Shown piece after piece: positions 1,045-27,526 of a DNA stretch of 64,000 nucleotides (its first letter is position 1; the number at the start of each line of letters is the position of its first letter). The notes under the pieces are model-generated. The model was given only the letters and a program-made list of their open reading frames with translations, made no database searches and was not told the DNA's origin. Where the stretch lies: positions 16,510,001 through 16,574,000 of the forward strand of contig CM027380.1 of NCBI GenBank assembly GCA_015680905.1, given 5' to 3'. Origin of the DNA: Coptis chinensis (Eukaryota > Streptophyta > Magnoliopsida > Ranunculales > Ranunculaceae). Position numbers and translations under genes: made by a program.

Positions 1045-2450
1045 TCAACGATAAAACTTTTTCAAATGAAAAGCATTCCATGGCTTGGCAAATTTTTCTC
1101 CGGTGATTCGACGAAGGAAATAAGACCCTTTGGATGCTGGTCTATCAATAATGAATGGTCCTTCCCAATTCTCTGACAGCTTCCCAGATTCAATGAGCTT
1201 CTGTTTGCGGCTAAGTACCCAATCTTCTGGTTCGAAACTCTTGAGGCAAAGCTTTCTATCATATTTGCGTTTCATGGCTGCCTGATATTTTATTAGACAT
1301 TGTAAAGCTTCTTCTCGAGTTTTATCAATTGAGTCTGCCACCAAAGTTAGAGCAACGTCATTGTTTCCAGTTTGTACTGCTTCTGTCCTTGTAGTTGGTG
1401 CAATTAATTCTGTCGGGAGGACAGCATCCATGCCATAAGCTAGATTGAAAGGGGAAAGATTGGTAGAATGCTTTGGAGTTGTGCGATAAGCCCAAAGCAC
1501 TGCTGGCAACTCTTTAACCCAATTTCCTTTTGCTTCATTAAGCTTCTTCTTCAAAGTCGAGAGAATCGTCTTATTGGTTGCTTCTGCTTGTCCATTTGCT
1601 TGTGGATAATATGGAGCGGAGAAATTATGCTGAATTTTTAGCGAGGCGCAAAATTTGTGAATTTCTTCCGCATCAAATTGTTTACCGTTGTCAGAGACGA
1701 TGTTAGATGGAATTCCAAAGCGACAAACGATGTCTTTCCATAAGAAACGTCGTATTATCCGTTCTTTGAGATGTTGACAAGCGGTTGAGCTTCTACCCAT
1801 TTAGTGAAATAATCGGTCGCAAACCAATAAGAATCGCATTACACTTCCGGGAGCCTTTGGTAGGGTCCCATGATATCCAAGCCCCATTTCGCAAAAGGCC
1901 AAGGGCTTAGAATTGGGTGGAGTTCCGTTGCGGGAAGTTTGCCCATATTTGCATGTTTTTGACATGGTATGCATTTTTGGGCAAATTCCGCTGAGTGTCT
2001 TTGCATGCTAGGCCACCAGTATCCTTGAGTCATGGCTTTATGTGCAAGACTACGTCCCCCAGAATGGTTTCCACAAAGTCCGGAGTGTATTTCTTCGAGA
2101 ACTAGATGACCTTGATCTTTGGAAAGACATCTGAAAAGAGGACTGAAATTATTTGCTTTCCTATAAAGTAGGAGATTTCCCTTAGAATTTGGAATTATGA
2201 CAAATTTCCAGGCATCTCTCTTAATTTTGTAGGAAAGCGACAAATCCTCAGGTAGAGTTCCATGTTGCAGAAATTCTAAATAAGTAGGTCTCCAATCATC
2301 TGGTGAAGAATCACCGTCGATAGATTGGAGATCCAAATGTGGTACTTCTGGAGAATTATCTGCTTCGTGGGACTCATCTTCCATATCAACATTGACTTGG
2401 TCGGCATCATGTGTGAGTGGTGAATCACTCTCAACACGATGATCAGCCAA
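1045..2450 (-). pseudogene. Tat element integrase region (fossil)
   Basis: On the minus strand the region first shows an HHCC zinc-binding domain (GNHSGGRSLAHKAM followed by a CIPCQK pair) and then the start of the catalytic core near WGLDIMGPY. Core motifs follow (IVSDNGKQF and PYYPQANGQAEA). The C-terminal part ends in the PWNAFHLKKFY motif typical of Tat and Athila integrases. The pieces lie in more than one frame; the region is a fossil. Confidence 0.85.
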
Positions 2451-2647
2451 ACCTTGATGGTCGGCTAAATCTTCTTGAGCTGCTTCCTCTGAGTGAGATT
2501 CTGAACTTGTGCCGGCCGATTGAGCTAGCTCTTCTCTCTTTCTTTTCCTTGTTACGACATTGACTTGCTCGAATTGAAATTCGATATGTCGCCCGAAATA
2601 GCATAGATGAGCAATGTATAAGTTTTGAACATGTTCTTCTATAACGA

Positions 2648-4524
2648 TTATGCTTGGAAAAGGTTGGAAATCAATATAGATTTTTCTTTCATTGTTAACA
2701 TCAACTCGGCGCAGAGATAGGCTAAGGCATCGGCGTGACGATTATCATTCTTGAGGCGGGTGAACAACAATGGATTTGAAATGAATGGATAGCTCATGCA
2801 TTTTTTGGACATATGCAGCCATCCTATCATTTCGAGCAACAAAAGATCCGCCAAATTGATTCGCAACAAGCTTTGAGTCAGTGAATAACTCAATCTTTGT
2901 CGCCCCCAGGTCAAGTGCCGTTCGCATTGCATAAAGAACCGCTTCATATTCAGCTTCATTGTTTGATGCGCAAAATTCGAGGCAAACAGATTTTTCAATT
3001 TTCTCGCCATCAGGTCGGATCAAAACACAACCAAGGCCTGAACCTGATTTGTTCTTGGAACCGTCCGTGTGTATAGTCCATAAAGAAGGGTCGGCACTTG
3101 TGGATGGATCGGCCGATCCTTGTTTTGGATTAGGAGGAGGTTCAAAACCGCTTCTTCCATGGTCGGTATGTCATCGACGGAAAATCGCCATAAGTGATGC
3201 CATTCGTGGCCTTTCTCAGATGATCGGGCTTTGTAGATAATTTCGTAGGCACTCAAATATGTTTCCCATTCTGCTAATCGGCTCGAATCAGCATTTCAAA
3301 AACTTTTCTCAAAGGGTATTCATGTAGACATTGATGATGATACGCCCTTGAAAATAAGGCTTCAATCTTCGCGGCACTATGGACAAGTGAGAGAGCGATT
3401 TTCTCAATCTGTGAATACCTTGTTTCGAGCTCGTAAGTCTTACTTATGAAGAAAAATTGGTTGTTCATTTTCATCATCAATGAATAAGACTCGCACTCAC
3501 AGCCTATTTCGATTTCGCCAAATAGATGCCAATTGTTTGTCCGGTGGTCGGACTAGCAAGAATTGGCGGCTGTACTAGGTATTCTTTCATTTTCTGAAAA
3601 GCTATGTCACACTCATCTGTCCATTTTGGGGATCCCTTAATGGCTTGGAAAAAGGGGTGGAGCCGATCTGAATATTTTGAGATAAATCTACCCAAAGCGG
3701 CTATCCTACCCGTAAAGTTCTTTGGATTTGCTTCTTGGTTTTTTGGCGAGGGCATTTCAAATTATTGCACGGATTTGATCAGGGTTAGCTTCAATGCCTC
3801 GTTTGGTCATAAGATATCCAAGAAATTTTCCCAATGCTAACCCAAATGCGCATTTTGATGGATTTAGACGCATTCGAATATGCATCACCGATCAAAATAT
3901 TTTTGCAAGTGATGAAGGTGTGATGACTCTTCATGCGACTTGATGACCATATATCGCAATATAAGCTTCCATAAACTTGCCTAAGAAGTCTGAAAATGAT
4001 GTATTAATGAATTTCTGATATGTTGTCGGTGCATTTTTTAGACCGAAAGGCATTACCTTATAGCAAAATAAGCCTTGGTCTATTATGAAAGTTGTAAGTT
4101 CTTGTTCATCTTCAGCTAAAGCAATTTGATAAAATCCCATTGAGGCATCCATAAAAGAAATTCTTTTAAACCCTGAAGTGGCATAAACCATTTCAGAAAT
4201 ACGAGGCAAGGGATACGGGTGAACAGGACATTTTTTATTGACATCAGTAAAATCAACATAGATTCTAAGTTTCCCATTTTTCTTAGGGACTGCTACTACA
4301 TTTGATATCCATTTCGGATATAGTACAGGCCTAATAAAATTAACACTTAGAAGTTTGTCGATTTCTTCTTTCACTTTGAGCTTTCGATCGGGAGCCATTC
4401 GGCGAGGCTTCTGACGCACTGGCTTTTGTGTTTTGTCGATATCCAGCCTGTGACATGCAAGTGAAGGATCAATCCCAGGCATTTGTTCGATCGTCCACGC
4501 AAACACTGTGCAATTTTTCTTCAA
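2648..4524 (-). pseudogene. Tat element RT, RNase H and second RNase H region (fossil)
   Basis: From right to left: a reverse transcriptase block (IYVDFTDVNKKCPVHPYPLP, then CYKVMPFGLKNAPTTYQKF), an RNase H/connection block (GRIAALGRFISKYSDR, ELETRYSQIEK), and an archaeal-type RNase H block (SNNEAEYEAVLYAMRTALDL, TDSKLVANQ). Having both RNase H domains is diagnostic for the Tat lineage. The frames are broken. Confidence 0.85.
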
Positions 4525-4689
4525 AAGCTCAATGAGATTATCCTATTCTTTCTTGGAAATTTCCGCAGAAATAAAAGTGGTTTCTTCTTCCTTGTTGCCG
4601 ATCTGTACTTCGAAGAGTCTGTCGATGGTCGGGGGGCCACCTAAACGCTGCTCCATAGCATTTACCCGGCCAATGGAATTCTGTAATTG

Positions 4690-7416
4690 CTACTTTTTCC
4701 CATCGACATTTAGGATGGTGTTACCCTTGACTTCCGAATCTTTATAATCTTCGAGTACAGACTCATGGCACTTCAAAGCTGCTATCTGATCACTTCGAAC
4801 TTTGCATACCCTACCATCACACCGAACTTGATAGCCCGATGAAAAGTAGAAATGACGACTCCCATTGAGTGAATCCAATCTCTTCCCGAATGACATTGTA
4901 GGAAGAGTTACACCAAGAGAAGAAAATCAATTGTAACTTCCTTGTTCATTAATGTCACCGAAGAGAGCATCTACCAACCGATGTTCTTTTTTGTCCCATC
5001 GGGCCAATGATAGGATTTGGATCGAACTATCATTTTCTCGGGAGGTTGAGTCCTTTGTAACAACGCTTTGTAGATCACACTTGCCGAACTACCAGATCGA
5101 TCATGATTTTCTCGCACACGATGAATTCCAACAAAAGCTTGTATTACAACGGCATCATAATGAGGATGGTGCACTCCTATCGTGTCATTGTCGGTCCAAC
5201 ATAGAGGTCCTTCCTCATAAGTTTCAAGCACCCATTCCGTGGAGAAAATCATATCCACTATAAACATAGTGGTGGCTGAGATCGATGATCTTGGAGTGAT
5301 TGAAATTCTTCTTACCGGGTGTTAGACATTGAATTAACTCGCATGACCGACTTTGATTACATTGTGTCGTAACGACTAAAGCTTGTTTCGCTTTTACCAA
5401 GCACATAATCTCGAGCATACCCTTCTCGATCAAACCTTGGATTCTACCCCTTAGAGATCGGCATTGTTCAGTTTCATGACCAAAATCATCGTGAAATTTG
5501 CACCACAGGGATTTGTCACGTGTAGCCTTGGTATCTTCGGAGAGAGGATAAGGTGGAGATAAGATATTCTTTCCTTTAATCTTCTCATAGATAACAGCGT
5601 ACTTCTCGTTGAGGGCGGTAAGCTTTAACTCTGGAAGTTTCTTTTGTTCTTTGTCGTTCCATTGTTGTGGCCTACCATCACTTTTGGACTTTTGATCGGT
5701 TGTTTGTTGAAACTTCGCTTTTTGACTCTGTTCCTGCGGCTTGCTTATTCGATCCCTATCTCTGTGAACTCGTGCCGATGCATCATCTTCAACTCGAATA
5801 AACTGTTGAGTTCGAGAGAAAAGTTCATAACGAGTTGTTGGGACATCTTTTACAATAGAGTTGTAAATGCCGTCCCTATCATAATTAATGCCTTCCTTGA
5901 AGGCATAAATGACAAGAATATCAGATGCATCTGGGATTTCAACAGCCACTTTTCGAAATCTCGCAACAAACTTACTGAGCTTTTCTTCTTTTTGTTGTTT
6001 AATACTGAATAGAGAATCAATATGGTTCGGTTCTTTCCAGTTGTGGATTTAAAATGCTCGCAAACTTGTAAGCCGATCGAGAAAATTGTGGATGGATCTT
6101 TCGAAGCATGTTAAACCATCTCATCGACTCAATTCCAATGAGTGTGGACGGAATAACTTGCAAAGAAGAGAATCGCCGAAAGTCCATAAGATCATCTTGT
6201 TTCGTAATTAACAAGATGCATCAAAGGATCTCCATCAATCTCATCATACTTTTCAATTCGCCGCTTGAAGTCCTTGTGATGAACGGTTGTTTGATTCGAG
6301 AGAGAAGGGAGAATCGATACCACTTTCTATAGCGAGATTTCAAATTTTGTTTTCGCGTGACTCCTTATCATTAACAGCCTTTCAAGATCATCTCATGGAG
6401 ACGCTGCTCAGAAAAAATGGAACATTCTCGACGATGGTCCCGACCGAACTGTGGACGTTTTGGCCAAGATTTCTTCGGAGGAGGGGGAGTGAGTTCCCGT
6501 CGACCCGTCCATGCAGGTGAAGGTGACCGAGCCAGTAGAGGAGTTCGGTTCCTTCGTCTCCTATGGTGAACATCGGAGAATACTGACGGAGTCCGGATCG
6601 GCACTACCATTTTCTTGACCTGTTGCAAGTGAGTCTCCATCTCCATGGCTACCATTGTCAACATACTTTGGTCGACAATGAGCTCTTGGATTCGGACTAC
6701 AACTTGAGCGACTTTGTTGTGGAACTGAACCGCTTGGTGAATAGTGTCATTGTCGAGATCGGCGATACTCTTTATTCGCGGCGAGGACTTATATGGCTTT
6801 GCCTACCCCTTCTATAGCTTGGGGTAGGAACTTCATTGGTTTTTCGTTGGTTGGGTATTCTATCTTGCCGATCTATATGAATATTTTGCCGATCTCCCTT
6901 AGTACGGTTCAAATCGGTAAAACCGGTTTTCGTCATGAGATCTTTTGTGAGTTGGTGATCCCCGACAGGTGGTCGCATCAAGGTCGGCAGAGGAGTTTGT
7001 GGATTAAACTACGATTACACCGAAAGTGTAGGCTTTCGGCGCTGCACATTTTGTTTCTGTGAAGCCTTTTAAGTTTAACTTCGCCGCGGTTTCTCTTAGT
7101 CGCGGGAGTTTGTACTTTCGGAGTCTTTGAGAGATGCTTCAGATGTTCAAACGATCCCAAACACTTTTTGCCGTGGAGCCCGAATCATCTTCGGCGAAGC
7201 CGACGGTATTTCTTCTTGATTGTTATTCTTGCTCTCCAATTGTCGGAGACGACGGTCTACCTGAGTTGATGGATCTGGTACGTGAATACCCACTCTCTCA
7301 GTCGCAGATGGCCGAGGACCATCGGACTTGGAAAATGAATTCGCAGCAGAAGGTGAATGCTGAACTTGTGCGGTAAAAGGGATACTTTCACCGTTGTTTG
7401 TTTTTCGAGAAGCCAT
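4690..7416 (-). pseudogene. Tat element gag and protease region (fossil)
   Basis: The first Met codon after the primer-binding site is at 7416 and begins MASRKTNNGES. A gag-like core with retrovirus-type zinc-knuckle remnants (KFHDDFGHETEQCRSLRGRI) lies at 5224-5949. A protease-like stretch follows toward RT. The region is fossil and broken in several places. Confidence 0.7.
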
Positions 7417-7454
7417 TGACGTAACTTTTGTTTTGTGGTTGAGGGTAGGAGCAC

Positions 7455-7469
7455 AGACGGCGCCAAATA
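7455..7469 (-). other. Primer-binding site of the minus-strand Tat element
   Basis: On the minus strand the motif TTTGGCGCCGTCTG lies just inside the proposed LTR end. The same motif follows the 5' LTR of the Tat element at 27527, and a close variant follows the inner element's LTR at 38577, which supports the assignment. Confidence 0.65.
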
Positions 7470-7699
7470 TGTTTCAGCAAGATTTGCCAAAACACACCAG
7501 TTGAGGGTTGTGAGTAATGTTTTTTGGAGATGGTGAAGGAGATGGTGATTGGGGAAAGATGAGACTGGACTTCGGTTTTGAAGTTGCCTACGTACCCAAA
7601 GATATTGCTTGGGATCAAGTCTCGATTACGTAGTTCTGGAAAAATGACAAAGGTTGGATTTTATAGGTAGCATTGGTGATAGTTACTTCCTCGTTCTCC

Positions 7700-8157
7700 A
7701 ATATTCCAATCGTGGGAAGAAGTTGGAGAACCGGGCAGAGAACTGGCCCAATCATGGGATGAAGTTGGAGAGCTGGGGGACAAACCGTCGGCCGTGGAAT
7801 GAAGTTAGAATGGCGGGAGAATCGGCTTCGTGGGATGAAGTTGGAGAATCGGCGAGAGAACTGTCGGTTCGTGGATTGAAGTTGAGAACCGCGGGACATC
7901 TGTCACCGGTGGAATGAAATTGGTTTCACCGGGCGGAGAACTGTCGACTCGTGGATTGAAGTTGGAGAATCAAGCGGGAGAACCGCCGCCGTGGATTGAA
8001 GTTGAGAACGGGCGGAGAACCGCCGGCCGTGGGATGAAGTTGAGAATCAAGCGGAGAACCGTCGGTTCGTGGATTGAAGTTGAGAATCTGGGCGGGAGAA
8101 CTGCCGCCTCGTGGATTGAAGTTGAGAACCGGGAGAACCGTCACCGTGGAATGTAGG
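7700..8157. repeat. About 40-bp minisatellite inside the LTR, about 12 copies
   Basis: The phrase GTGGATTGAAGTTGAGAA (variants GTGGGATGAAGTTGGAG) recurs every 37-47 bp. It alternates with a GC-rich block containing GGGCGGAGAACCG. The units are degenerate. Confidence 0.85.
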
Positions 8158-8305
8158 CTTTGAGCATGGGCTTTTTCATAGATAAGCTCTGAGCATGGGC
8201 TCTGAGCGTGGGCTTGTTTATAGTTGGGCTCTGAGCGTGGGCTTGTTTATAGTTAAGTTCTGAGCGTGGGCTTGTTTATAGTTGGGCTCTGAGCATGGGC
8301 TTGTA
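8158..8305. repeat. About 30-bp minisatellite at the duplication breakpoint
   Basis: Units of the type GAGCGTGGGCTTGTTTATAG occur about five times, separated by TTGGGCTCT or TTAAGTTCT. Cassette copy A begins within this array, and part of the array is carried over at the start of copy B (14565 onward). Confidence 0.85.
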
Positions 8306-8820
8306 TTGAATTGGGCTTATATTGGGCCACATTTGTGTGGGCCGGAACAGTATGTAAATTAGAATATTAATATATTACATTTGTTTGAATGGATTGTGTA
8401 ACATGTTTAAGATTAATAAACACTTCAATACGCTAGTTGTGTTCTTCGTTCAATTCGATTTTTGCTGTTTTTCCATGTTGCGAATAAATATATTCGAAGA
8501 GGTATTGAACCGTCTGTAATATAGTCAATATAATTATTAGTGCATATGCCACAAACTAATTTACCCAAAAAAATATGTAATATGTTGATGAAGTTTACTT
8601 TTGTGCTGCTGGTTGTGTAATTATCTCGTCGAGCATTTATATGTGATTGAGTTACTTTGCTGGATTTATATGAGTGTACTACCTGTAAGATATAAAAATA
8701 TTATATCATGGTGTACAACATAGTTGGTATTCTACATTGGAGAATAAAATATCTTAAAAAAATGCAAGAAGAAAAACTTTTTTTTATCATTGTCTTCAAT
8801 ATGATCGAGCGAATCCATTC

Positions 8821-8853
<33 letters not shown>

Positions 8854-9059
8854 TTCGACTTAAATAAACAGGTAGCTTGGACAGAAAAAGAAATTGTTGC
8901 TAGTTAACAAATGTCATTTTGGTTTTTATATTTAGAAATGATTACATTGAGAAACAATTAGAAAAAATATATTGGACACTGTTAATATTTTGTTCTATAG
9001 ATCTATTTAGTCGGGAATAATATGTGGAGTGAATTGAATGTGTAAATAAAAACTTTCAG

Positions 9060-9263
9060 GAAAATGTTTATGTGGCAAGATTACCATTTAAAAGCTTTCA
9101 ATATAATGTAGATCTTATTTCATGTGTATGGAGATTGAATGATTCAAATGATGGAGTGATAATTTGTTCAAATCATCTGTATGGAGGCGACAAAATGAAG
9201 AAATTATGGATGTTACTCGCATTGCTGAATTACATCTGTTTTAGACTGGCATTAGTCGCATAG
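9060..9263 (+). other. Coding-like stretch of unknown origin (copy A)
   Basis: The frame can be read as VYVARLPFKSFQYNVDLISC and continues to about 9263, with near-coding composition. The family is not recognised and no start or splice sites are convincing. It is repeated at 15412-15615. It may be another captured gene fragment. Confidence 0.2.
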
Positions 9264-9299
9264 TCCTTTGATCAATTCTTGCCTTGGTTATTGGCAGCC

Positions 9300-10430
9300 A
9301 ATCTGAAAATGTTATTAGCACCCAACTCCACACGCAGTACTTTGGAAGGTTTCAAGCTTCCACCTGATTAATACAATGCAATGGAATGTTGGTTCTTTGA
9401 GAGTCAAGTGGCAACAACTTTAATTTTTGGAATTGCTCCACTACTATTTTAGGATATATAGATTAGTGACCTTAGTCTATTTTACTCAAATACTCTTTGA
9501 ATACTTATATACTGAGTCCATATTAATAATTTTTGCTTAAAGAATATGCATGTTAAGCGACTCATACTTCAATTAGCTAGTTAGGCTACTCAACTCCCTC
9601 AATGTGTTGCAAGTGCAACAGTTGGAAAATAGACTTCAATGAGGGCAAAATACAAACTGGTGTATTGGAAACAATGCTAGTGTTCTTCATAAAAAAAATG
9701 ATAAATATTATACGTCCAATACTTACCTCATTTCCTTTTATAATTGATAAATATTTTATTGTAGAATTATGGCAACACTGGTTGCAGTGTTAATTCTCTA
9801 TGAGTTTAGCAGTAGTGAACTTCTTATTGCAATCCTCAATAGAAGATCCCGTTAACTGAAGTTAAAGGAAAATCAAAAGTGAAATAAATGTTAGATACAA
9901 AAATTACCATGAAGGCAATAGAAGTCTGATTGGAACAGAAAACATACTGAAGCACTAATGACCAAATCCTGAGTGCACATACAATGGGATCACAACTATC
10001 CAACAACGGGGACAAAGGCAAGATGTGAAAAAACTCAGAACCCATTTAAAGCTGCAGACACACAAATAGAAAAGATAAGACATTAGTAGATGAACAAAGG
10101 GACAATGAAATACGTACTCATATATGCTTTCGCAATGGGTAAACTATTCAATGCTACCACACCTTGGTGAATGGTGAATATTTGGACCAAGCATCAACTT
10201 AATTGGACGATTTGAAGTACTGGATCAAAATCTATATTAAAGGACAATGGCTTTCTTTTCCTGCCCATCTAAAAGACTTTCACAGATTGAACAGTGAGAA
10301 TTACTTAAAGTAAATTTTTGGTTTAGAGTTCTCAACGGTTATGGCCTTATTATATGAATGTGCCTTTTCACAATTAAGACTTCAGACACCTCCTAGTACC
10401 CCAGGTTTTAAACACACAACAGTAGTTTGC
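9300..10430. other. Non-coding part of copy A, nothing recognised
   Basis: AT-rich sequence with only short, poorly supported ORFs. No domain or repeat family is recognised. The equivalent part of copy B is 15650-16784. Confidence 0.4.
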
Positions 10431-10431
10431 A

Positions 10432-10487
10432 GGGTGCACATAAGTTTGATTACCAAAAAAAAAAAAAAAAAAAAAGGGTGCACATAA
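10432..10487 (+). mobile_element. Tiny retroposition scar with 12-bp target-site duplication
   Basis: The 12-mer GGGTGCACATAA at 10432-10443 is repeated at 10476-10487. Between the copies lie only GTTTGATTACC and 21 A residues. A poly-A-ended insert flanked by a direct repeat is the hallmark of LINE-machinery insertion; here almost only the tail was inserted. The equivalent site in copy B (16785-16838) has a shorter A run. Confidence 0.65.
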
Positions 10488-10892
10488 CTGTATAGGCCAC
10501 AAACAGATGTATATATTTTGATAAAGGACCCATCTAATGGTAACACCCTTTTGTTTTCGTGACCAAAACCTAACCCATACAATGTTTCTGACATACACTA
10601 CAAGCCTACACTATTGCTACCATTTTAAAAAGCATTCTTAACATGTATCACAAACTTGCAACCAAAATACTTATCCTATCAAAGGTAACTTAGATTTCTA
10701 GTCCACTAAGGACAAAGGCTTATACTGGACTGGTATTAAAAGTAAAGGAGTTCATCGGATTAAGGTTACAAATTAATAATATTTAAAATCACTAGTCTCC
10801 ACATTCAGGGTGCACTATCAGTTCCATCTCTGCAAGCATCTATGAACTCCTTTACATCTCCTTCAAAGATTGTATACTTCCAAAGTCTACTG

Positions 10893-11290
10893 CTAGCTCT
10901 GCGCAGCCAACAATTCTGCCTCTGCGAAGGTATTGGCCTTCATCTTCTTTATGCAAGCTCCTAGAAACCTTCCCTCATAATCCCTGCCAACCACCGCTAA
11001 CGTAGCATGAGTGCCATCATTCACAAAAACAGCATCAAAGTTCTCTTTAACCCAACCAGAAGGTGGACTAATCCAGGAAGTATCTTTGGCCCTAATTTCA
11101 GTTGGTTCCACACGAAGAGTTGTTAAACTTCAACTTATTTCTAGCTTGCCATATAACATTCAACATAGCAATGAAGTAACCAATTGATGCCTCTATCCTT
11201 TGTTTCCTTGCCATGAATGCCAAATGAAATCCATCGGTTCCTCCAAAATCCTTCAACAGTGCCAGTGAGATTGGTAGATTAAAGTTGTGC
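10893..11290 (-). pseudogene. LINE-type RNase H fragment (copy A)
   Basis: On the minus strand a linker segment (VIWQARNKLKFNNSS) is followed, after a change of frame near 11100, by the start of an RVT_3-type RNase H domain: WISPPSGWVKENFDAVF, VVGRDYEGRFLGA and an AEAELLAA block. The second half of the domain, with the later catalytic Asp and the HLLA motif, is missing. The order resembles the C-terminus of plant L1-type LINE ORF2 or a domesticated RNase H-like gene. Confidence 0.6.
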
Positions 11291-11550
11291 AATGAGTTCG
11301 ACACCGTACCTTGATCAACAGCTACTCCTGCAGCACCATTGCCTCCAAGTGACTCTAATGATTCAGCAGCAACATGGCTATTTTTGGAATCTTCTGTGAC
11401 AGGGTTTGATACAAAATAATTTCTTGACTTTGTCCATCTTCTGGAGAATGGATCATATGATTCTTTACCAGCTTTAAAACTTGGGTTAACTGTCTTCTTT
11501 TCAGAGTGTAAGGGCGGAAGTTTTGATCTAGAACGAAATGTCTGACACAT
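11291..11550 (-). pseudogene. Gene fragment resembling the RTF1 C-terminus (copy A)
   Basis: The minus-strand frame contains SYDPFSRRWTKSRNYFVSNP. A DPFSRR block followed by Thr-x-Ser and an aromatic residue resembles the C-terminal end of plant RTF1/VIP5, a subunit of the PAF1 transcription elongation complex. I recall this similarity but cannot align it here, so the assignment is tentative. The frame runs on without a gap into the RNase H linker, suggesting two fused fragments. Confidence 0.3.
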
Positions 11551-11574
11551 CTTTAAAACCTTTAAAACCTAGTG

Positions 11575-12060
11575 CTTATCCTGGATGCCCTTGCTGATCT
11601 TGTGACTCGGCGTGATCTATGAGCGTGGGTTCATTGGCACCTACCAAGACTGGTGCGAGGCTTTCTCCACATATCCAAGAACATACGATCTCATCCATGC
11701 CACCGGTGTATTCAGTATCTATCAGGATAGCTAAGTAATAACTACAAAATTTGAATTAGTAGACAATGCTTTCTTTTGTGTAGAAAAATGTATGTTGTTG
11801 TATTGTCTTGTTTTTATGTGTGAGAGCTTCGTATCCTTGTGCAATGCAGGTGTGACATTACACACATACTATTGGAGATGGATAGGATATTGAGACCAGA
11901 AGGGACAATGATATTCAGAGACACAGTAGGAATTCTTGTGAAGATCGAGAGCATAATAGACAGAATGAGATAGAAGAGTCAGATTATGGATCATGAGAGT
12001 GGACCATTTAACCTTGAGAAAATTTTAGTTGCTGTTAAAACTTCTTGGACCGGTGAAAAG
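11575..12060 (+). pseudogene. PMT-family methyltransferase, C-terminal fragment (copy A)
   Basis: Two exon relics of a Golgi-type putative methyltransferase (PMT, DUF248 family) are present. Exon one reads [20 protein letters not shown] and [20 protein letters not shown], ending near 11731. Exon two starts at 11850 after TGCAG and reads ILLEMDRILRPEGTMIFRD, then IMDHESGPFNLEKILVAVK. Damage visible: the first exon is followed by CTAAGT where a GTAAGT donor is expected, and a TAG at 11971-11973 replaces the Trp normally found in the GMRW block. The N-terminal two thirds of the protein is absent. Confidence 0.8.
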
Positions 12061-12750
12061 TATCTGAAAGCAGTATCCTTTAAAAGGTAGAAGACACAAT
12101 TAAAACACAAACCACTAAAAGACAAACTTAAATTACCTAAACTTATGCGTATTTAGCCTGACGCTGAAAGACGGTAACGCGCATACCTATAGGATGTGTG
12201 AACGCGGGGAGAGTTTGTCTATGGGATGCTAAAAATTAAAAATAGTAATAAACACAAATAAATTACAAATTTCAAATTAATGGTTGGAAAGAATGTAGGA
12301 GGAAGAACGAAATACCAAAAAAATTAAAACTTAGAATAGAACAGTAACACGGAATAACGACATCAATAAAATTAAGACAATGGCAAAGCAAATGTGGGTG
12401 TTCTAGGTAATAAATCAACCAACGTGTGAAACACAGCAAAACAGTAAAAACAAAATAAGAACAAATAGAATAACGTAACATATAGAATCATGTAAAATGG
12501 AAACGAATCACGTTAATGGTTTGATGATCTAGGAGAAAAGAAATTAGGAAAAGTATAAGGAAAAGTGAAATTAGAAACTAAGAAAAAAACCAGAGAGAGA
12601 AATTAACAACTTACCTCTTCCATTGATGTTGCACGGACAGAGAGATTAATCAGAGAGAGAAACCAAAAAGGGAGAAGTACTGCCCCAGAAAGGGAGAAAA
12701 CGTTTCTGTCACATATCAATCGTTTGACCACCGCTTTCTCTCATTAAAGT
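12061..12750. other. Spacer between PMT and PARP1 relics
   Basis: AT-rich. The first 70 bases (PMT end, AAAAGGTAGAAGACACA) are repeated in altered form at 14140-14225. A purine-rich AGAGAGAAA stretch lies near 12590-12700. Nothing coding is recognised. Confidence 0.4.
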
Positions 12751-12751
12751 T

Positions 12752-14111
12752 TTAAAGGCTCTGATCTTCCAGCTTACTTTTCATATCAGATGTATTTGGT
12801 AAATCCCCGACGAGAACATTTTCTTCAGACTTATGGACTTTTGATTTTTGACCATCACTGGTGCTTCTTTTGCGTTTCATTCCACCTTTGGAAGGTTTTT
12901 CCATAAGTTCATCATCCACATGTGCCTCATAATTCAAATTTGAAGAGGGTGTTTAATTTTTAGTAAACTAAACGATGAAGCCTAAAACTGTTGTTTAACC
13001 TAGCATTAGCAATAGTTTTATAAAATTGGATGGATTCATACCGCTTTTGTTTGTGGAACATCCCTTCTTAGCCAGGGAACAAACAGCTTCCTGATCTAAA
13101 GCAAAAAGGCTCTCCCACCCTGCTAACTTCTCTACCTTAGTAGATGGAGTTGATTCCATAAAACAGCTTGCATGATGCCATGCCACCCCCCTTGCACCTT
13201 GTCCTTCTGGCTTGGTTGATATGAACCTTAAAAAAACCAATAACCGTACCCATCCCAAAAGAATGGTTAAGAAGACAATGAAATATATGGATACTTATAT
13301 ATGAAACCTCTTAAGGTCTACTAAACCTTCATTTCAGAGTTTCTGAGTACAGTTAGTGTCTATCATATCAGGACACTAAACCTTATTACAATTAACCTAT
13401 ACTAAAGTGAATCCTTTTCAATTTTAAGGTAACCTAAGTTTCTGCAGAAGTAGGTCCTTTTTCATCTGTGACTTTCTAAGATCAGCACTAATTATGGTTT
13501 TTTTATTGTCGGGGAAAATATGACTTACCCCTCCCTTCATAATTTTCTGACTGCATCTCCTGCAAGTAGCACGAAGAGTATGTGAAACCTCGATACCACC
13601 TACATTAGCAGCAACAGTGGTAATGCTTGAGGAAGAGACACCAACCTCTATATACTTCCTTATCATTTCTTGATCTTCCCATCGAAGTGAGTATATGCCT
13701 TCAACATCATCAAGGCTGAGATTATAATACAGGGCAATGCAAAGTCAATTACATAAAGGACAATCAGCATGGAATCCCATTTATTCATTTTATTTTTAAA
13801 TAGAGATTCCTACTTAATTGGAAATCACTGTAAATTTTAATTACGATTTGATCTAGTCTGTGAAAATGATGTGATCATTAAGAAAACATGACGAATCAAT
13901 CTTTAATGAAAAATATAAAATAGAAAAATGGCCAGAGTTGAAGGAAAAAGTTTGTTACATGCACTGGCCCATCGAACTTTGAGGACTGAACCATTTAACC
14001 AAAACGAAGTAACTCTTTAGTAATGCGATTATTGCAAGTTCTGCATAATGCCCTCGGTGACTTTGCATAGTCTGCTTTCCATGGATTTCCACGGTTTCCA
14101 GGAGTCCCCAT
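12752..14111 (-). pseudogene. PARP1 N-terminal pseudogene (copy A)
   Basis: Minus-strand relic of poly(ADP-ribose) polymerase 1, a nuclear DNA-break sensor. Exon 1 starts at 14111 (PWKADYAKSPRALCRTCNNR, the first zinc-finger half), with TAA where the family has Lys in the GKMVQ block. Exon 13529-13715 encodes DDVEGIYSLRWEDQEMIRKY and the first half of zinc finger 2 (CRRCSQKIMKGG). Exon 13042-13226 encodes the second half (AWHHASCFMES, VEKLAGWESL). About 12752-12930 encodes a Lys-rich linker ending SKLEDQS. The frames of the two finger-2 exons do not match at the junction. The WNHAxC block, the BRCT, WGR and catalytic domains are absent. Confidence 0.85.
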
Positions 14112-14139
14112 GTTCTACTTCTACACACACTCCCTCAAA

Positions 14140-14225
14140 ACTTATTGGATCGGTGAAAAGTATCTCAAAGCAATATCCTTTAAAAGGTAGAAGACACAGT
14201 TAAAACACAAACCACTAAAAGAAAG
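14140..14225 (+). repeat. Second partial copy of the PMT 3' end
   Basis: About 86 bases matching 12040-12125 at roughly 90% (ATCGGTGAAAAGTATCTCAA versus ACCGGTGAAAAGTATCTGAA), placed just beyond the PARP1 start codon. This shows that the cassette was assembled with internal duplication. The equivalent in copy B is about 20490-20575. Confidence 0.75.
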
Positions 14226-14564
14226 AATATTAGAAAGCGAAAATGAAAGAAAGTATTACCTTTGATTCTAAAAATGTAAAACAGGGTTTAAATTTATGTT
14301 TGTTGGTTGCAAAGAGTTTGATTTGATATCAGGGTTTTAATTGGGAATATCAGGAACAGAGAAGGCGAACGAATGGTTTAATTTGTTTTTAATTGGGAAA
14401 CCGCGAAACGGTGTATCTGTTGTTTTATGAAGACGTTGAGTTTTATAGTCCGGAAAATGCTTTAAATTACGGAATTATGGGAATACCGGAACTAATACGT
14501 AATGACTAATTTACCCTTCGAACATGATCTGTAAAAAAATTCGTGGGTGAAACTTTTGGGTTGG
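14226..14564. other. Right end of copy A and junction, no gene
   Basis: AT-rich and featureless up to the duplication junction at 14560-14565. No terminal inverted repeat is obvious. Confidence 0.4.
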
Positions 14565-16784
14565 GCGTGGGCTTGTTTATAGTTGGGCTCTGAGCGTGGG
14601 CTTGTTTATAGTTAAGTTCTGAGCGTGGGCTTGTTTATAGTTGGGCTCTGAGCATGGGCTTGTATTGAATTGGGCTTATATTGGACCACCTTTGTGTGGG
14701 CCGGAACAGTATGTAAATTAGAATATTAATATATTACATTTGTTTGAATGGATTGTGTAACATGTTTAAGATTAATAAACACTTCAATACGCTAGTTGTG
14801 TTCTTCGTTCAATTCGATTTTTGCTGTTTTTCCATGTTGCGAATAAATATATTCGAAGAGGTATTGAACCGTCTGTAATATAGTCAATATAATTATTAGT
14901 GCATATGCCACAAACTAATTTACCCAAAAAAATATGTAATATGTTGATGAAGTTTACTTTTGTGCTGCTGGTTGTGTAATTATCTCGTCGAGCATTTATA
15001 TGTGATTGAGTTACTTTGCTGGATTTATATGAGTGTACTACCTGTAAGATATAAAAATATTATATCATGGTGTACAACATAGTTGGTATTCTACATTGGA
15101 GAATAAAATATCTTAAAAATATGCAAGAAGAAAAACTTTTTTTTATCATTGTCTTCAATATGATCGAGCGAATCCATTCGTTTTTTTTTTTTTTTTTTTT
15201 TTTTTTTCGACTTAAATAAACAGGTAGCTTGGACAGAAAAAGAAATTGTTGCTAGTTAACAAATGTCATTTTGGTTTTTATATTTAGAAATGATTACATT
15301 GAGAAACAATTAGAAAAAATATATTGGACACTGTTAATATTTTGTTCTATAGATCTATTTAGTCGGGAATAATATGTGGAGTGAATTGAATGTGTAAATA
15401 AAAACTTTCAGGAAAATGTTTATGTGGCAAGATTACCATTTAAAAGCTTTCAATATAATGTAGATCTTATTTCATGTGTATGGAGATTGAATGATTCAAA
15501 TGATGGAGTGATAATTTGTTCAAATCATCTGTATGGAGGCGACAAAATGAAGAAATTATGGATGTTACTCGCATTGCTGAATTACATCTGTTTTAGACTG
15601 GCATTAGTCGCATAGTCCTTTGATCAATTCTTGCCTTGGTTATTGGCCGCCAATCTGAAAATGTTATTAGCACCCAACTCCACACGCAGTACTTTGGAAG
15701 GTTTCAAGCTTCCACCTGATTAATACAATGCAATGGAATGTTGGTTCTTTGAGAGTCAAGTGGCAACAACTTTAATTTTTGGAATTGCTCCACTACTATT
15801 TTAGGATATATAGATTAGTGACCTTAGTCTATTTTACTCAAATACTCTTTGAATACTTATATACTGAGTCCATATTAATAATTTTTGCTTAAAGAATATG
15901 CATGTTAAGCGACTCATACTTCAATTAGCTAGTTAGGCTACTCAACTCCCTCAATGTGTTGCAAGTGTAACAGTTGGAAAATAGACTTCAATGAGGGCAA
16001 AATACAAACTGGTGTATTGGAAACAATGCTAGTGTTCTTCATAAAAAAAATGATAAATATTATACGTCCAATACTTACCTCATTTCCTTTTATAATTGAT
16101 AAATATTTTATTGTAGAATTATGGCAACACTGGTTGCAGTGTTAATTCTCTATGAGTTTAGCAAGAGTGAACTTCTTATTGCAATCCTCAATAGAAGATC
16201 CCGTTAACTGAAGTTAAAGGAAAATCAAAAGTGAAATAAATGTTAGATACAAAAATTACCATGAAGGCAATAGAAGTCTGATTGGAACAGAAAACATACT
16301 TGAAGCACTAATGACCAAATCCTGTGCACATACAATGGGATCACAACTATCCAACAACGGGACAAAGGCAAGATGTGAAAAAACTTCGGAACCCATTTAA
16401 AAGCTGCAGACACACAAAATAGAAAAGATAAGACATTAGTAGATGAACAAAGGGACAATGAAATACGTACTCATATATGCTTTCGCAATGGGTAAACTAT
16501 TCAATGCTACCACACCTTGGTGAATGGTGAATATTTGGACCAAGCATCAACTTAATTGGACGATTTGAAGTACTGGATCAAAATCTATATTAAAGGACAA
16601 TGGCTTTCTTTTCCTGCCCATCTAAAAGACTTTCACAGATTGAACAGTGAGAATTACTTAAAGTAAATTTTTGGTTTAGAGTTCTCAACGGTTATGGCCT
16701 TATTATATGAATGTGCCTTTTCACAATTAAGACTTCAGACACCTCCTAGTACCCCAGGTTTTAAACACACAACAGTAGTTTGCA

Positions 16785-16838
16785 GGGTGCACATAACTTT
16801 GATTACCAAAAAAAAAAAAAAAAAAAGGTGCACATAAC
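16785..16838 (+). mobile_element. Retroposition scar, copy B
   Basis: Copy B version of the poly-A insert flanked by GGGTGCACATAA-type repeats. The A run has 18 residues against 21 in copy A, a normal homopolymer difference. Confidence 0.55.
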
Positions 16839-17243
16839 TGTATAGGCCACAAACAGATGTATATATTTTGATAAAGGACCCATCTAATGGTAACACCCTT
16901 TTGTTTTCGTGACCAAAACCTAACCCATACAATGTTTCTGACATACACTACAAGCCTACACTATTGCTACCATTTTAAAAAGCATTCTTAACATGTATCA
17001 CAAACTTGCAACCAAAATACTTATCCTATCAAAGGTAACTTAGATTTCTAGTCCACTAAGGACAAAGGCTTATACTTGGACTGGTATTAAAAGTAAAGGA
17101 GTTCATCGGATTAAGGTTACAAATTAATAATATTTAAAATCACTAGTCTCCACATTCAGGGTGCACTATCAGTTCCATCTCTGCAAGCATCTATGAACTC
17201 CTTTACATCTCCTTCAAAGATTGTATACTTCCAAAGTCTACTG

Positions 17244-17899
17244 CTAGCTCTGCAAGACCAACAATTCTGCCTCTGCGAAGGTATTGGCCTTCATCTTCTT
17301 TATGCAAGCTCCTAGAAACCTTCCCTCATAATCCCTGCCAACCACCGCTAACGTGGCATGAGTGCCATCATTCACAAAAACAGCATCAAAGTTCTCTTTA
17401 ACCCAACCAGAAGGTGGACTAATCCAGGAAGTATCTTTGGCCCTAATTTCAGTTGGTTCCACACGAAGAGTTGTTAAACTTCAACTTATTTCTAGCTTGC
17501 CATATAACATTCAACATAGCAATGAAGTAACCAATTGATGCCTCTATCCTTTGTTTCCTTGCCATGAATGCCAAATGAAATCCATCGGTTCCTCCAAAAT
17601 CCTTCAACAGTGCCAGTGAGATTGGTAGATTAAAGTTGTGCAATGAGTTCGACACCGCATACCTTGATCAACAGCTACTCCTGCAGCACCATTGCCTCCA
17701 AGTGACTCTAATGATTCAGCAGCAACATGGCTATTTTTGGAATCTTCTGTGACAGGGTTTGATACAAAATAATTTCTTGACTTTGTCCATCTTCTGGAGA
17801 ATGGATCATATGATTCTTTACCAGCTTTAAAACTTGGGTTAACTGTCTTCTTTTCAGAGTGTAAGGAAGTTTTGATCTAGAACGAAATGTCTGACACAT
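17244..17899 (-). pseudogene. RNase H and RTF1-like fragments (copy B)
   Basis: Same fused fragments as in copy A. The RNase H part is at about 17244-17640 and the DPFSRR-bearing part at about 17700-17899. Small indels relative to copy A split the open frame differently, for example near 17655 and 17865. This is expected of unselected sequence or of assembly noise. Confidence 0.5.
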
Positions 17900-17925
17900 C
17901 TTTAAAACCTTTAAAACCTAGTGCT

Positions 17926-18411
17926 TATCCTGGATGCCCTTGCTGATCTTGTGACTTCGGCGTGATCTATGAGCGTGGGTTCATTGGCACCTACCAAGAC
18001 TGGTCGCGAGGCTTTCTCCACATATCCAAGAACATACGATCTCATCCATGCCACCGGTGTATTCAGTATCTATCAGGATAGCTAAGTAATAACTACAAAA
18101 TTTGAATTAGTAGACAATGCTTTCTTTTGTGTAGAAAAATGTATGTTGTTGTATTGTCTTGTTTTTATGTGTGAGAGCTTCGTATCCTTGTGCAATGCAG
18201 GTGTGACATTACACACATACTATTGGAGATGGATAGGATATTGAGACCAGAAGGGACAATGATATTCAGAGACACAGTAGGAATTCTTGTGAAGATCGAG
18301 AGCATAATAGACAGAATGAGATAGAAGAGTCAGATTATGGATCATGAGAGTGGACCATTTAACCTTGAGAAAATTTTAGTTGCTGTTAAAACTTCTTGGA
18401 CCGGTGAAAAG
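17926..18411 (+). pseudogene. PMT-family methyltransferase fragment (copy B)
   Basis: Copy B of the PMT relic, with exon one ending near 18082 and exon two from 18201. It has the same CTAAGT at the donor position and the same TAG in place of the conserved Trp as copy A. The damage was therefore present before duplication. A single extra base near 17956 separates it from copy A. Confidence 0.8.
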
Positions 18412-19104
18412 TATCTGAAAGCAGTATCCTTTAAAAGGTAGAAGACACAATTAAAACACAAACCACTAAAAGACAAACTTAAATTACCTAAACTTATGCG
18501 TATTTAGCCTGACGCTGAAAGACGGTAACGCGCATACCTATAGGATGTGTGAACGCGGGGAGAGTTTGTCTATGGGATGCTAAAAATTAAAAATAGTAAT
18601 AAACACAAATAAATTACAAATTTCAAATTAATGGTTGGAAAGAATGTAGGAGGAAGAACTTAAATACCAAAAAATTAAAACTTAGAATAGAACAGTAACA
18701 CGGAATAACGACATCAATAAAATTAAGACAATGGCAAAGCAAATGTGGGTGTTCTAGGTAATAAATCAACCAACGTGTGAAACACACAAAAACAGTAAAA
18801 ACAAAATAAGAACAAATAGAATAACGTAACATATAGAATCATGTAAAATGGAAACGAATCAATGTTAATGGTTTGATGATCTAGGAGAAAAGAAATTAGG
18901 AAAAGTATAAGGAAAAGTGAAATTAGAAACTAAGAAAAAAACCAGAGAGAGAAATTAACAACTTACCTCTTCCATTGATGTTGCACGGACAGAGAGATTA
19001 ATCAGAGAGAGAAACCAAAAAGGGAGAAGTATCGCCCCAGAAAGGGAGAAAACGTTTACTGTCACATATCAATCGTTTGACCACCGCTTTCTCTCATTAA
19101 AGTT

Positions 19105-20461
19105 TTAAAGGCTCTGATCTTCCAGCTTACTTTTCATATCAGATGTATTTGGTAAATCCCCGACGAGAACATTTTCTTCAGACTTATGGACTTTTGATTT
19201 TTGACCATCACTGGTGCTTCTTTTGCGTTTCATTCCACCTTTGGAAGGTTTTTCCATAAGTTCATCATCCACATGTGCCTCATAATTCAAATTTGAAGAG
19301 GGTGTTTAATTTTTAGTAAACTAAACGATGAAGCCTAAAACTGTTGTTTAACCTAGCATTAGCAATAGTTTTATAAAATTGGATGGATTCATACCGCTTT
19401 TGTTTGTGGAACATCCCTTCTTAGCCAGGGAACAAACAGCTTCCTGATCTAAAGCAAAAAGGCTCTCCCACCCTGCTAACTTCTCTACCTTAGTAGATGG
19501 AGTTGATTCCATAAAACAGCTTGCATGATGCCATGCCACCCCCCTTGCACCTTGTCCTTCTGGCTTGGTTGATATGAACCTTAAAAAAACCAATAACCGT
19601 ACCCATCCCAAAAGAATGGTTAAGAAGACAATGAAATATATGGATACTTATATATGAAACCTCTTAAGGTCTACTAAACCTTCATTTCAGAGTTTCTGAG
19701 TACAGTTAGTGTCTATCATATCAGGACACTAAACCTTATTACAATTAACCTATACTAAAGTGAATCCTTTTCAATTTTAAGGTAACCTAAGTTTCTGCAG
19801 AAGTAGGTCCTTTTTCATCTGTGACTTTCTAAGATCAGCACTAATTATGGTTTTTTATTGTCGGGAAAATATGACTTACCCCTCCTTCATAATTTTCTGA
19901 CTGCATCTCCTGCAAGTAGCACGAAGAGTATGTGAAACCTCGATACCACCTACATTAGCAGCAACAGTGGTAATGCTTGAGGAAGAGACACCAACCTCTA
20001 TATACTTCCTTATCATTTCTTGATCTTCCCATCGAAGTGAGTATATGCCTTCAACATCATCAAGGCTGAGATTATAATACAGGGCAATGCAAAGTCAATT
20101 ACATAAAGGACAATCAGCATGGAATCCCATTTATTCATTTTATTTTTAAATAGAGATTCCTACTTAATTGGAAATCACTGTAAATTTTAATTACGATTTG
20201 ATCTAGTCTGTGAAAATGATGTGATCATTAAGAAAACATGACGAATCAATCTTTAATGAAAAATATAAAATAGAAAAATGGCCAGAGTTGAAGGAAAAAG
20301 TTTGTTACATGCACTGGCCCATCGAACTTTGAGGACTGAACCATTTAACCAAAACGAAGTAACTCTTTAGTAATGCGATTATTGCAAGTTCTGCATAATG
20401 CCCTCGGTGACTTTGCATAGTCTGCTTTCCATGGATTTCCACGGTTTCCAGGAGTCCCCAT
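19105..20461 (-). pseudogene. PARP1 N-terminal pseudogene (copy B)
   Basis: Copy B of the PARP1 relic: start codon at 20461, exons about 19880-20065 and 19395-19579, and the linker at 19105-19290. It has the same in-frame TAA in exon 1. It differs from copy A by one-base homopolymer changes around the zinc finger 2 donor (19850-19885). Confidence 0.85.
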
Positions 20462-20910
20462 GTTCTACTTCTACACACACTCCCTCAAAACTTATTGGAT
20501 CGGTGAAAAGTATCTCAAAGCAATATCCTTTAAAAGGTAGAAGACACAGTTAAAACACAAACCACTAAAAGAAAGAATATTAGAAAGCGAAAATGAAAGA
20601 AAGTATTACCTTTGATTCTAAAAATGTAAAACAGGGTTTAAATTTATGTTTGTTGGTTGCAAAGAGTTTGATTTGATATCAGGGTTTTAATTGGGAATAT
20701 CAGGAACAGAGAAGGCGAACGAATGGTTTAATTTGTTTTTAATTGGGAAACCGCGAAACGGTGTATCTGTTGTTTTATGAAGACGTTGAGTTTTATAGTC
20801 CGGAAAATGCTTTAAATTACGGAATTATGGGAATACCGGAACTAATACGTAATGACTAATTTACCCTTCGAACATGATCTGTAAAAAAATTTGTGGGTGA
20901 AACTTTTGGG

Positions 20911-23540
20911 TACCCTCTTGGACCAAAAGATTGGGTTAAAACCGAAAATACTGGAACTAATAAACCGCGGCAAGTTTTTCCATTATATATAAGATATATA
21001 AGTAACTGTATCATGATCTGACATTTGTTGCACAGTGCAAATCATGACGTGTTTTATTGTTTAGATGTGTTAGAGAGACGATATGTGTAATACTTAGGTG
21101 CTTCGTGATTCCATTTTTCATAATTTGTCTTACTCTAACCAATTACAAATTAAAATTTCCCACCATGAATAACTGTGAAGTTTGAAGTTAGATTATTATT
21201 CTTAAGTCTCAAGTTAGATTCATCTAAAACTTGCCGCTCAGGCCTTTTCTATTGCTCTAAATAAATCTCCCAAACTTGACTCTCAATTATATTTCCCTCT
21301 TGTGTGTAGGTGGCCAATGTTTTCGGCCATGATTACAATAATTCGCCTGACCAGGTATGCAACCTTGGACGCTCTACTAATCCCCGAATGAAAACGTTCA
21401 AATGACAGAATCTTTACCACGTACGCGTGTGCACCACGAATACTGTAGATTATATTTGGTCAACCATTTACCTCAACTATACGCAAATCTGCATGTGAGA
21501 TCTTCTCATCTTCAGAGGAAAATGTTAATAATAGAGTCTAAAGTAGCTTTTACCCATATAACTCAACTTGTCTACCTTATCCGACATTGGAACACAATTA
21601 AGGTGATTGAGCTCATCATCAACCTTCGCATAGGAAGAATAGCACAGGCATTTAGCAGGGAAACAAGGGGGTAGAATGTTTCTCTTAAGAGTAATATCAC
21701 ATGTAGGAGTCCCAACCGCATGTGTTAGTGCACATTTCCACTTGGCCAATTGAAGGTGTTAGGCAAAAGACGGTGTCAAACAAATACTTATATATACCAT
21801 ACAGGTAACTGTACTTTAATTCAGGCAGATATTTTTGTATCGTGCACGTATATATATGCTAATAAAGGAACATTTATCCAAGTATTAAGGAATTGAAATT
21901 GAGACCATCATCTAAGCAGAAATAAGAAGAAGATATAAAAACATGACTGACCATCATAATATGTTAATACCATATGCAGTATCACTAGCATTGCCTGATA
22001 TGATATAACGTTTTCCTAAGTTTTTCGTACTACAATTATTAGTGAAATGTTTATTTGGTAAATTTTCCCTGTACTTAATCATTGGAGGTTTGAAGTGAAA
22101 TGTTGGGGGAAAATTTACCAAATAAACGAAAAGGTTATACCCATGGCGGAATTTAACGATTTATGGTTCCCGGTCTAAGAAAACCTTTTTAACTAACAAC
22201 AAAAGATTGCACGAATTATATACTAAATCGTATATTGGGGATCCGATAGTTGACGTTAGGAATTGATCTCCTACCATGATTGTTAGACCGAAAAGAGAAC
22301 AATTAATATTTTTGACTTAAATGAAAGGGATTTGAGGTTGGTCGACTCCTACTAGAGCTGAATTAGTTATGTGTTTAAATGAAAACGAAAACATTCAAGA
22401 TTTTATACAGAGTTGAGAATACTAAAGGAAGAGTTGAAGACAGGAAGAAGTGGTCCAAAGGTATGTCCAGCTGAAGGTCAATTACGTGGGGAGTGATCAA
22501 AATCCTCGGTGACCAGTACTTGCACATTTTCTATCCTTTCTAATTCGCTGTAAACAATTCATACACAACTAGCAACCCTCAAATGTGGCATGTATTGAGT
22601 TCCCTTTCTCGGCTTTCTTTCGTACTAAAACATCACCTCCAAAATTCCTCAGCCCCCACAACCTGATGTCCTGATCTGCCGCTTCTCCTCCCTTATGTCC
22701 CCACTCCCCAGTCCTACCATGCTATTCATGCTTTCAGAAGATGACAACAATAAAAACAAATCAATGGGAGCAATGCCAGTAACTTATTAAGTACCCCCTC
22801 TACTATATAGTTGCACCCATGCCACATTGCCAATTGCCACCTCAAGAGACTAAATGCCATGTGCTTCACTTTTTATTTTGATCCACTGGTGGTTTGGTTG
22901 TAGATATATGTGTTAAGCCAAGGCGGAAGTCCTGCAAGCTGCAACACAAAAATCATAGCATTATATATCAATTTTAAACCAATTAGCGTATCCATCCGAG
23001 TTAAGATATGTGTCATAGTCAATGTAAGTAGAGATATTACGCATTTCATAGAAAGTCGCCTCTATGCGAAAATTCTGAAAGGGCCAATCATTCCTCTAAA
23101 TTAGTTATATTTTCCCATCCCCACCCACCTCTCACCCTCTCACCCTCTCATTTTTTCTCCTCATTTTTTTTTCTGAACTTTTCCTATCTGTCGTTCCTTA
23201 TCTCGTCTCATTCAAGTCAGGAATAAAGAAAACTAATCAAAAGTTCTCAAAGAGAAAGTAAGAGCAAAAAAAAAAGAGTGTGGTTTCTTGGTAGCCACTC
23301 CAGGAGGTTATTGTGAGATCAGAAATAAACACGTACATCTTTCTGGGGTTGGCCTGGATACATGCACTACACATCTTTAAGTTCAAGCAATCTACAACTC
23401 TTATTTTCTTCCTTTTTTATTTTTACTGCTTTTTGTAAAATATATATTTCTTGTTTTCTACTTGAAGACCTCAACTTGATTCCAAACCTCAAATGGTTAG
23501 TTATTACTTATTAGTTATCATGTACCCCTCTTTTCATATT
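20911..23540. other. Intergenic region upstream of the TTL gene
   Basis: AT-rich DNA with no recognisable gene. The ORFs at 21402-21674 and 22910-23104 have no supporting motif. A 21-bp perfect inverted repeat lies at 22049-22069 and 22107-22127. Near the gene, 23110-23170 is C/T-rich (repeated CACCCTCT), as in many plant promoters. Confidence 0.5.
22049..22127. repeat. Short hairpin, 21-bp perfect arms
   Basis: GTTTATTTGGTAAATTTTCC and its reverse complement are separated by 37 bases. The word GTGAAATGTT also occurs as a direct repeat beside both arms. It may be the remains of a small MITE. No flanking target-site duplication was confirmed. Confidence 0.6.
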
Positions 23541-27187: not shown

Positions 27188-27526
27188 TGTAGTGGCCCAA
27201 TAATGAGAGATGGACTAGCTCAATAGGATAAGGAAGGGGATGTAAGATAATAAGGGAAGTCGAGGAGTATGGTATCGTGACCGCGGAACCCTAAACCGCG
27301 GACGTGGCATAGGTACGGTGGAAAGAGAGACCGAAGGATGGAAAGACAGGTGGACGAACAAGATGAAGTGTAGAAGGGGTATAAAAAGAAGATGATGGAG
27401 AAAAGAAAGGGAGGCCGCACAGTGAAAGGAAAAGAGGGGAGAGAAAGGAAAAGAGAGAGAAAAAGACTAGTTAGAGCTTGAGTTTTTTGCTCTTCGGTTC
27501 TTACTTGTAGTTTTTAGGTTCATACA
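27188..27526 (+). repeat. 5' LTR of the outer Tat element
   Basis: 339 bp, starting TGTAGTGGCC and ending GTTCATACA. It contains a TATA-like GGTATAAAAAG at about 27378 and is followed by the primer-binding motif. The partner LTR is split at 38121-38214 and 51068-51316. Confidence 0.93.

Follow-up and report, generated by a model that had tools for sequence, protein, structure and literature searches.

Gene-fragment capture by Helitrons is already well described, in maize as in other species, and the same habit is found in Pack-MULEs, each of which may hold several gene fragments complete with introns and which carry terminal inverted repeats and a 9-bp duplication. Maize Helitrons begin with TC at the 5′ end, as does the element discussed here. 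This element lies in Coptis chinensis, within a window of 64,000 nucleotides (assembly GCA_015680905.1, contig CM027380.1, referred to below as C4:16510001-16574000; other contigs are numbered likewise) that was compared with the whole genome (936 Mb, 116 contigs). The genes represented, PMT methyltransferases and a plant-type PARP1 among them, agree with a plant origin. The window contains a tandemly repeated 6.35-kb cassette of host-gene fragments, and the locus is very probably a non-autonomous Helitron on the minus strand, into which these fragments were captured serially.

How far does it resemble what has been described elsewhere? Stepwise capture by maize Helitrons was inferred by comparing relatives (Dong et al., 2011; PMC3288121). 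A review that also mentions Pack-MULEs gives, for maize, a figure of 2,791 Helitrons that are transcriptionally active and contain sequences of 376 host genes (PMC13317346). The maize elements share with ours the CTAG end, pieces from different chromosomes, stepwise capture and nested or multi-terminus elements; ours differs in family and sequence, and in the LTR (long terminal repeat) retrotransposon and probable internal tandem repeat added after its insertion (PMC3288121). In insect Hel1 Helitrons, short sequences shared at capture joints support a filler-DNA model; internal captures, short shared joint sequences and a core element that can be found without its insert all recur at our locus, which is unlike Hel1 in that the joint of a captured piece recurs here, as a direct repeat of 86 bp, next to the PARP1 fragment (PMC6544945).

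The 5′ end is found just to the right of the first-reported span: at window position 20994 the minus strand reads A and then TCTTATATATAATGG, and the sequence to the right of the second cassette copy belongs to a dispersed family that ends sharply at this base. When the window is aligned with 18 fetched genome copies and with three further loci, the flanks are unrelated up to the A that precedes TCTTATATATAATGGGAAAACTTGCC; TCTTATA stands at the border in 15 of the 18 fetched copies, with A before it in 14 of these 15. At up to three mismatches, this terminus motif occurs once in the window, on the minus strand. The 3′ end lies outside the window at C4:16504532, where an 8-bp hairpin is followed by CCGTTTACTAG and T; just past the far LTR of the retrotransposon, the minus strand reads GCACGTGCGTTGCACGTGCCCGTTTACTAG and then T, giving the hairpin and 11 nt ending in CTAG. 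The stem of this hairpin has 8 bp and its loop 3 nt, and it stands 11 nt from the end, where Helitrons have a short GC-rich hairpin at about 10-12 nt; it folds at -9.8 kcal/mol with a z of -5.7, and none of 200 shuffles did as well (0/200). The 20-base pattern GCACGTGCCCGTTTACTAGT, made of a hairpin arm and CTAGT, is matched exactly at 146 genome places, as against none for its reversed control, exact matching being such that diverged ends would be overlooked.

The 5′ and 3′ ends belong together. On contigs C1 to C6, the window element included, 9 of 54 typed 5′ places could be paired, at a distance of up to 30 kb, with a correctly ordered 3′ end and none with one in the wrong order, when compared with 100 listed 3′ places among the 146; uniform placement would give about 0.13 right-order pairs, and two of the nine pairs use one 3′ end. 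Two additional 5′ places on the same contigs have no listed 3′ end nearby, making 9 of 56 overall. The element thus delimited has the features of a Helitron: TC after A, CTAG before T, a 3′ hairpin, insertion between A and T, and no terminal inverted repeat. It spans C4:16504532-16530994, running leftwards from window position 20994 to beyond position 1, and by arithmetic amounts to about 6.4 kb once the retrotransposon, its target-site duplication copy and the second cassette unit are subtracted.

When 400 bp of each outer flank were joined, 10 long genome places matched across the joint at 87% or more, and paralogous empty sites are colinear at five of the six fetched (C4:86.2M, C3:37.9M, C7:23.3M, C6:8.7M and C5:19.7M). 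The insertion took place between an A and a T inside a dispersed repeat, which ends 72 bp further right (20995-21066). Relatives of this target repeat lie about 3.3 kb from matches to the profile Helitron_like_N at C5:19.68M, C6:44.03M and C4:80.61M, so that the host repeat may itself be a RepHel-bearing Helitron.

The 3′ end had been hidden by a 13.7-kb gypsy-type LTR retrotransposon, which lies near it and parts the Helitron body from it. Window 7470-8349 belongs to a dispersed repeat that often occurs as pairs some 9-17 kb apart, and its partner, the far LTR, is at C4:16504608-16505504 (L075). Both start with TGTT and end with AACA in window orientation, with GTATG outside the pair on both sides. 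Three of the five stop-free stretches in window 1-7469 have Pfam matches (reverse transcriptase, integrase zinc-binding and integrase core), which follow the gypsy order along the minus strand, while the other two have none; the insert thus has an LTR pair, a 5-bp target-site duplication and pol domains. The first 144 bp of the cassette as reported (8206-8349) are LTR, and the element reaches as far as 20994 on the right and past the window on the left. A minisatellite tract at 7.5-8.35 kb, considered as a possible Helitron end, was rejected in favour of this LTR with its TGTT...AACA ends and GTATG duplication. The same minisatellite spoils the alignment of the whole LTRs, so dating by LTR divergence was dropped and no age is claimed.

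Read 5′ to 3′ on the minus strand, the cargo consists of the leader, an 86-bp joint copy, the PARP1 piece, 12757-12623, block E, the PMT piece, the RTF1-like piece, the RNase H-like piece, block B and the 3′ subterminal region. The PMT piece, antisense relative to the Helitron, matches Methyltransf_29 at 3.4e-12 on the plus strand, above the Pfam cut-off, and is 95% identical to a PMT-type gene at C6:92.373M. The PARP1 piece has a 95%/93% DNA match to C4:93.376M, where the gene also encodes a PADR1 zinc ribbon; its two zf-PARP matches on the minus strand (1.3e-6 and 0.0011) are both under the cut-off (29.5 and 20.1 against 39.3 bits), so the name comes mainly from the DNA match to the PADR1-encoding gene. 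The RTF1-like piece has a 95%/91% DNA match at C1:20.44M, beside a Plus-3 (RTF1) domain match, and its naming also draws on the RTF1 sequence. Precise intron loss was considered for this piece and rejected, the missing stretch of about 75 bp being coding in L079 and, judged by eye, not bounded by splice sites. The fragment identities first proposed thus stand for PMT by Pfam and for PARP1 and RTF1-like by DNA match; the RNase H assignment (RVT_3), like zf-PARP, falls under the Pfam cut-off. Stretches 11101-11568, 12755-12952 and 13958-14134, all on the minus strand, have no Pfam match. That introns were retained is borne out, since the PMT and PARP1 pieces align to their gene copies through intervening non-coding sequence. 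Block B comes from a repeat of which the genome has 10 further near-full copies, at 84-90%.

Related elements without the PMT piece point to a stepwise capture. At three such loci (L030, L031 and L036/L037), block E is followed after 68-69 bp by the counterpart of 11598-11507, and in alignment the PMT piece replaces most of this 68-69-bp spacer. The RTF1-like piece has 53 genome matches, counting gene copies and this locus; it occurs together with the RNase H-like piece at C9:62.2M, and the 5.5 kb fetched at C2:114.21M contain the RNase H-like and PARP1 pieces, with no match to the other pieces or to the leader and no Helitron ends. Among other genomic copies of the cassette, the search for which the earlier note had advised, one on the 230-kb contig C114 keeps a body at 97%, with the block B, PMT and PARP1 pieces and without the retrotransposon. 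Related Helitrons would thus have gained the RTF1-like, RNase H-like, block B, PMT (beside E) and PARP1 pieces over several steps, after which a rolling-circle insertion would have placed the element between A and T of another dispersed repeat, and the gypsy-type retrotransposon would then have entered near its 3′ end. The rolling-circle step, the capture route, be it template switching or filler repair, and the order of events among the captures are what we infer from these comparisons. Around C114:200.51-200.73 kb (L001, about 6040-6260), as seen with L077, two different Helitrons are fused 3′ to 3′ with one common hairpin; both of these fused elements lack CCGTTTACTAG, and a block of about 9.9 kb lies between direct repeats of about 50 bp.

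The 86-bp repeat places the E/PMT capture joint on the far side of the PARP1 piece as well, and where it meets PARP1 the heptamer AAGTTTT is common to both sources, a joint that would fit template switching or filler repair. One scenario, which we put forward tentatively and consider rather doubtful, is that serial template switching, while the element was being replicated, brought in the PARP1 piece: 86 bp would have been copied across an existing E/PMT joint, a jump at AAGTTTT would have led into the PARP1 5′ untranslated region, and a return jump to block E would have had the E/PMT joint crossed again.

Could another kind of element, or none at all, have assembled these fragments? Pack-MULE capture, which the earlier note had held open beside Helitrons, would suit several intron-bearing gene fragments within a few kilobases, and in this the locus is like a Pack-MULE; unlike one, it has no terminal inverted repeat between its two ends (1 of the first 15 bases matches, and the best local match is 5 bases) and no 9-bp duplication in its flanks (CTATATATA versus TATATAAGT), and its empty sites are colinear, so that this explanation is highly improbable. 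Hardly more credible is an ancestral cluster of neighbouring genes that decayed in place with no capture involved. No evidence was found in its support; the pieces are in mixed orientation, other loci have some of them but not all, and the closest gene copies, to which the fragments were mapped as had been proposed, are at three separate loci, C6:92.37M, C1:20.44M and C4:93.38M (77 Mb away). The parents adjacent at one locus, which would have spoken for such a cluster, were not seen within this genome. Transduction of the fragments by the LTR retrotransposon is suggested by its adjoining the cassette at 8349/8350, but is the least probable of these alternatives: the GTATG duplication borders the LTRs, which makes this a separate insertion, and on C114 the Helitron body and hairpin occur with no such retrotransposon.

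Serial capture by a Helitron, which the earlier note had favoured with no convincing ends in hand, is upheld by the TC and CTAG termini, by the hairpin, by the A/T target and its empty sites and by the relatives without PMT; its proposed search for TC...CTRR with a 3′ hairpin has located both ends (20994 and C4:16504532). Several observations nevertheless weigh against a Helitron. The TC start is absent in 3 of the 18 fetched copies (L065, L071 and L072), as well as in three further loci (L032, L043 and L044), and for 47 of the 56 tested 5′ places every listed 3′ end is more than 30 kb away. At C2:64.27M, the sixth empty-site candidate fetched, the match is broken at the TA tract, and the insertion point itself lies in (TA)n, where a 2-bp TA duplication is indistinguishable from none. 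The C114 copy is 5′-truncated and fused at the hairpin to another element, and no second intact copy of the exact cassette was found in the genome. Helitron_like_N gave 157 matches from the 150 candidates scored out of 2000, none linked to these exact ends, and no autonomous partner bearing them was seen, no search having been aimed at one.

The tandem cassette itself is confirmed: comparing the window with itself reveals a direct repeat, 8196-14561 against 14557-20911, at 99.1% over 6379 columns, and the exact unit is 8206-14561 (copy 1), recurring at 14565-20911 (copy 2). In a global alignment, the two are separated by 18 gap events and, over 6339 aligned bases, by 27 substitutions. Their joint connects the Helitron leader (14561) to the retrotransposon LTR (8206), so the duplication is later than both insertions and the repeat does not represent a concatemer of Helitrons. 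A tandem pair of whole Helitrons was rejected, the window having one 5′ terminus match and no 3′ hairpin match and the joint being internal; 14561 was likewise dismissed as an element end, given that relatives run past it to the TC end. An unequal tandem duplication, as first proposed, has the direct repeat in its favour, but what is shared at the joint amounts to a few bases at most, with no long repeats, and the duplication might be an artefact of assembly. In the paper collection searched, and there only, no Helitron with an "internal tandem duplication" was met.

The duplication is nonetheless probably real, with the reservation that an uncollapsed or mis-filled assembly overlap, leaving the Helitron single-copy here, is a less probable but quite serious competitor. 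When the C114 copy is used as outgroup over the shared part (8350-12964), copy 2 accounts for 22 of the 24 substitutions and copy 1 for 2, with none unresolved, and copy 2 also takes 19 of 29 indel columns (one of them, 12964, at the cut end of the alignment); the 10 of copy 1 are two homopolymer-type tracts. Several changes in copy 2 are groups of adjacent bases, such as a 4-base replacement, and a hand count with clusters as single events gives about 11 for copy 2 against 2 for copy 1. Equally old copies are expected to diverge evenly, so copy 2 would owe its changes to poor polishing, to filling from a read or to a false duplication; these counts suggest that it (14565-20911) was assembled less accurately. 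However, the window is without any N, so there is no scaffold gap at the joint, the three bases 14562-14564 between the copies match the continuation of neither side, and a gap filled from an unpolished read would give the same pattern while being truthful. The last step would be a tandem duplication, in the genome or falsely by assembly, of a 6.35-kb internal stretch running from the LTR into the Helitron leader.

Table 1. Features of the Helitron locus, in window coordinates (~, copy-2 position approximate).
Feature	Position	Strand	Basis
Host flank at 5′ end, final 72 bp of the target, a dispersed repeat	20995..21066		Empty-site comparison
Helitron 5′ terminus; T of TC = 20994, host A before it (complement of 20995)	20971..20994	-	Sharp border; copies aligned
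Full-length Helitron 5′ leader, found in copy 2 alone	20572..20994	-	Family copies
Copy-1 version of the 5′ leader, truncated at 14561 by duplication joint	14222..14561	-	Family copies, joint
Second copy (86 bp, 94%) of E/PMT joint (12037-12122)	14137..14222; copy 2 20487-20572		Direct repeat
PARP1 5′ fragment, without 132 bp of the gene at 13860	12758..14143; copy 2 ~19111-20493 (by offset)	-	DNA match C4:93.376M
Block E, common to other dispersed loci without PMT piece	12062..12622		Genome copies
PMT methyltransferase 3′ fragment	11606..12057; copy 2 ~17956-18408 (by offset)	+	Pfam; DNA match C6:92.373M
RTF1-like C-terminal fragment, without ~75 bp of the gene	11180..11506; copy 2 ~17531-17859 (by offset)	-	DNA match
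RNase H-like fragment	10795..11123	-	RVT_3 0.0054, under Pfam cut-off
Block B, 1-kb piece of dispersed repeat	9700..10726; copy 2 ~16052-17077		Genome copies
Helitron 3′ subterminal region (family A)	8350..9698; copy 2 ~14709-16050	-	Common to other elements
GTATG target-site duplication; other copy just before far LTR (L075)	8350..8354		LTR pair borders
Near LTR of gypsy-type retrotransposon inserted in Helitron, TGTT...AACA in window orientation	7470..8349	retrotransposon minus strand	Paired repeats, target-site duplication, pol domains
Three-base duplication joint, followed by the LTR tail that copy 2 includes	14562..14708		Repeat alignment

Elsewhere in the window, a stretch of about 450 bp (59658-60109) matches its own reverse complement at 89%, and tandem-repeat arrays are found at 46005-47260 (period near 65 bp), 44384-45037, 61016-63069, 34084-35001 and 430-966. 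Repeat pieces at 27188-27526, 38121-38576 and 50701-51316, in nested order and at 92-97%, are perhaps one fragmented dispersed element.

Should the template-switching scenario prove true, the 86-bp joint would be a fossil of replicative rather than simple break-filling capture. What this locus offers is that a single genome gives both ends of the element, paralogous empty sites, loci where the PMT piece is missing, close copies of three source genes and joints at base level, which makes it useful for testing how Helitrons acquire host sequence.

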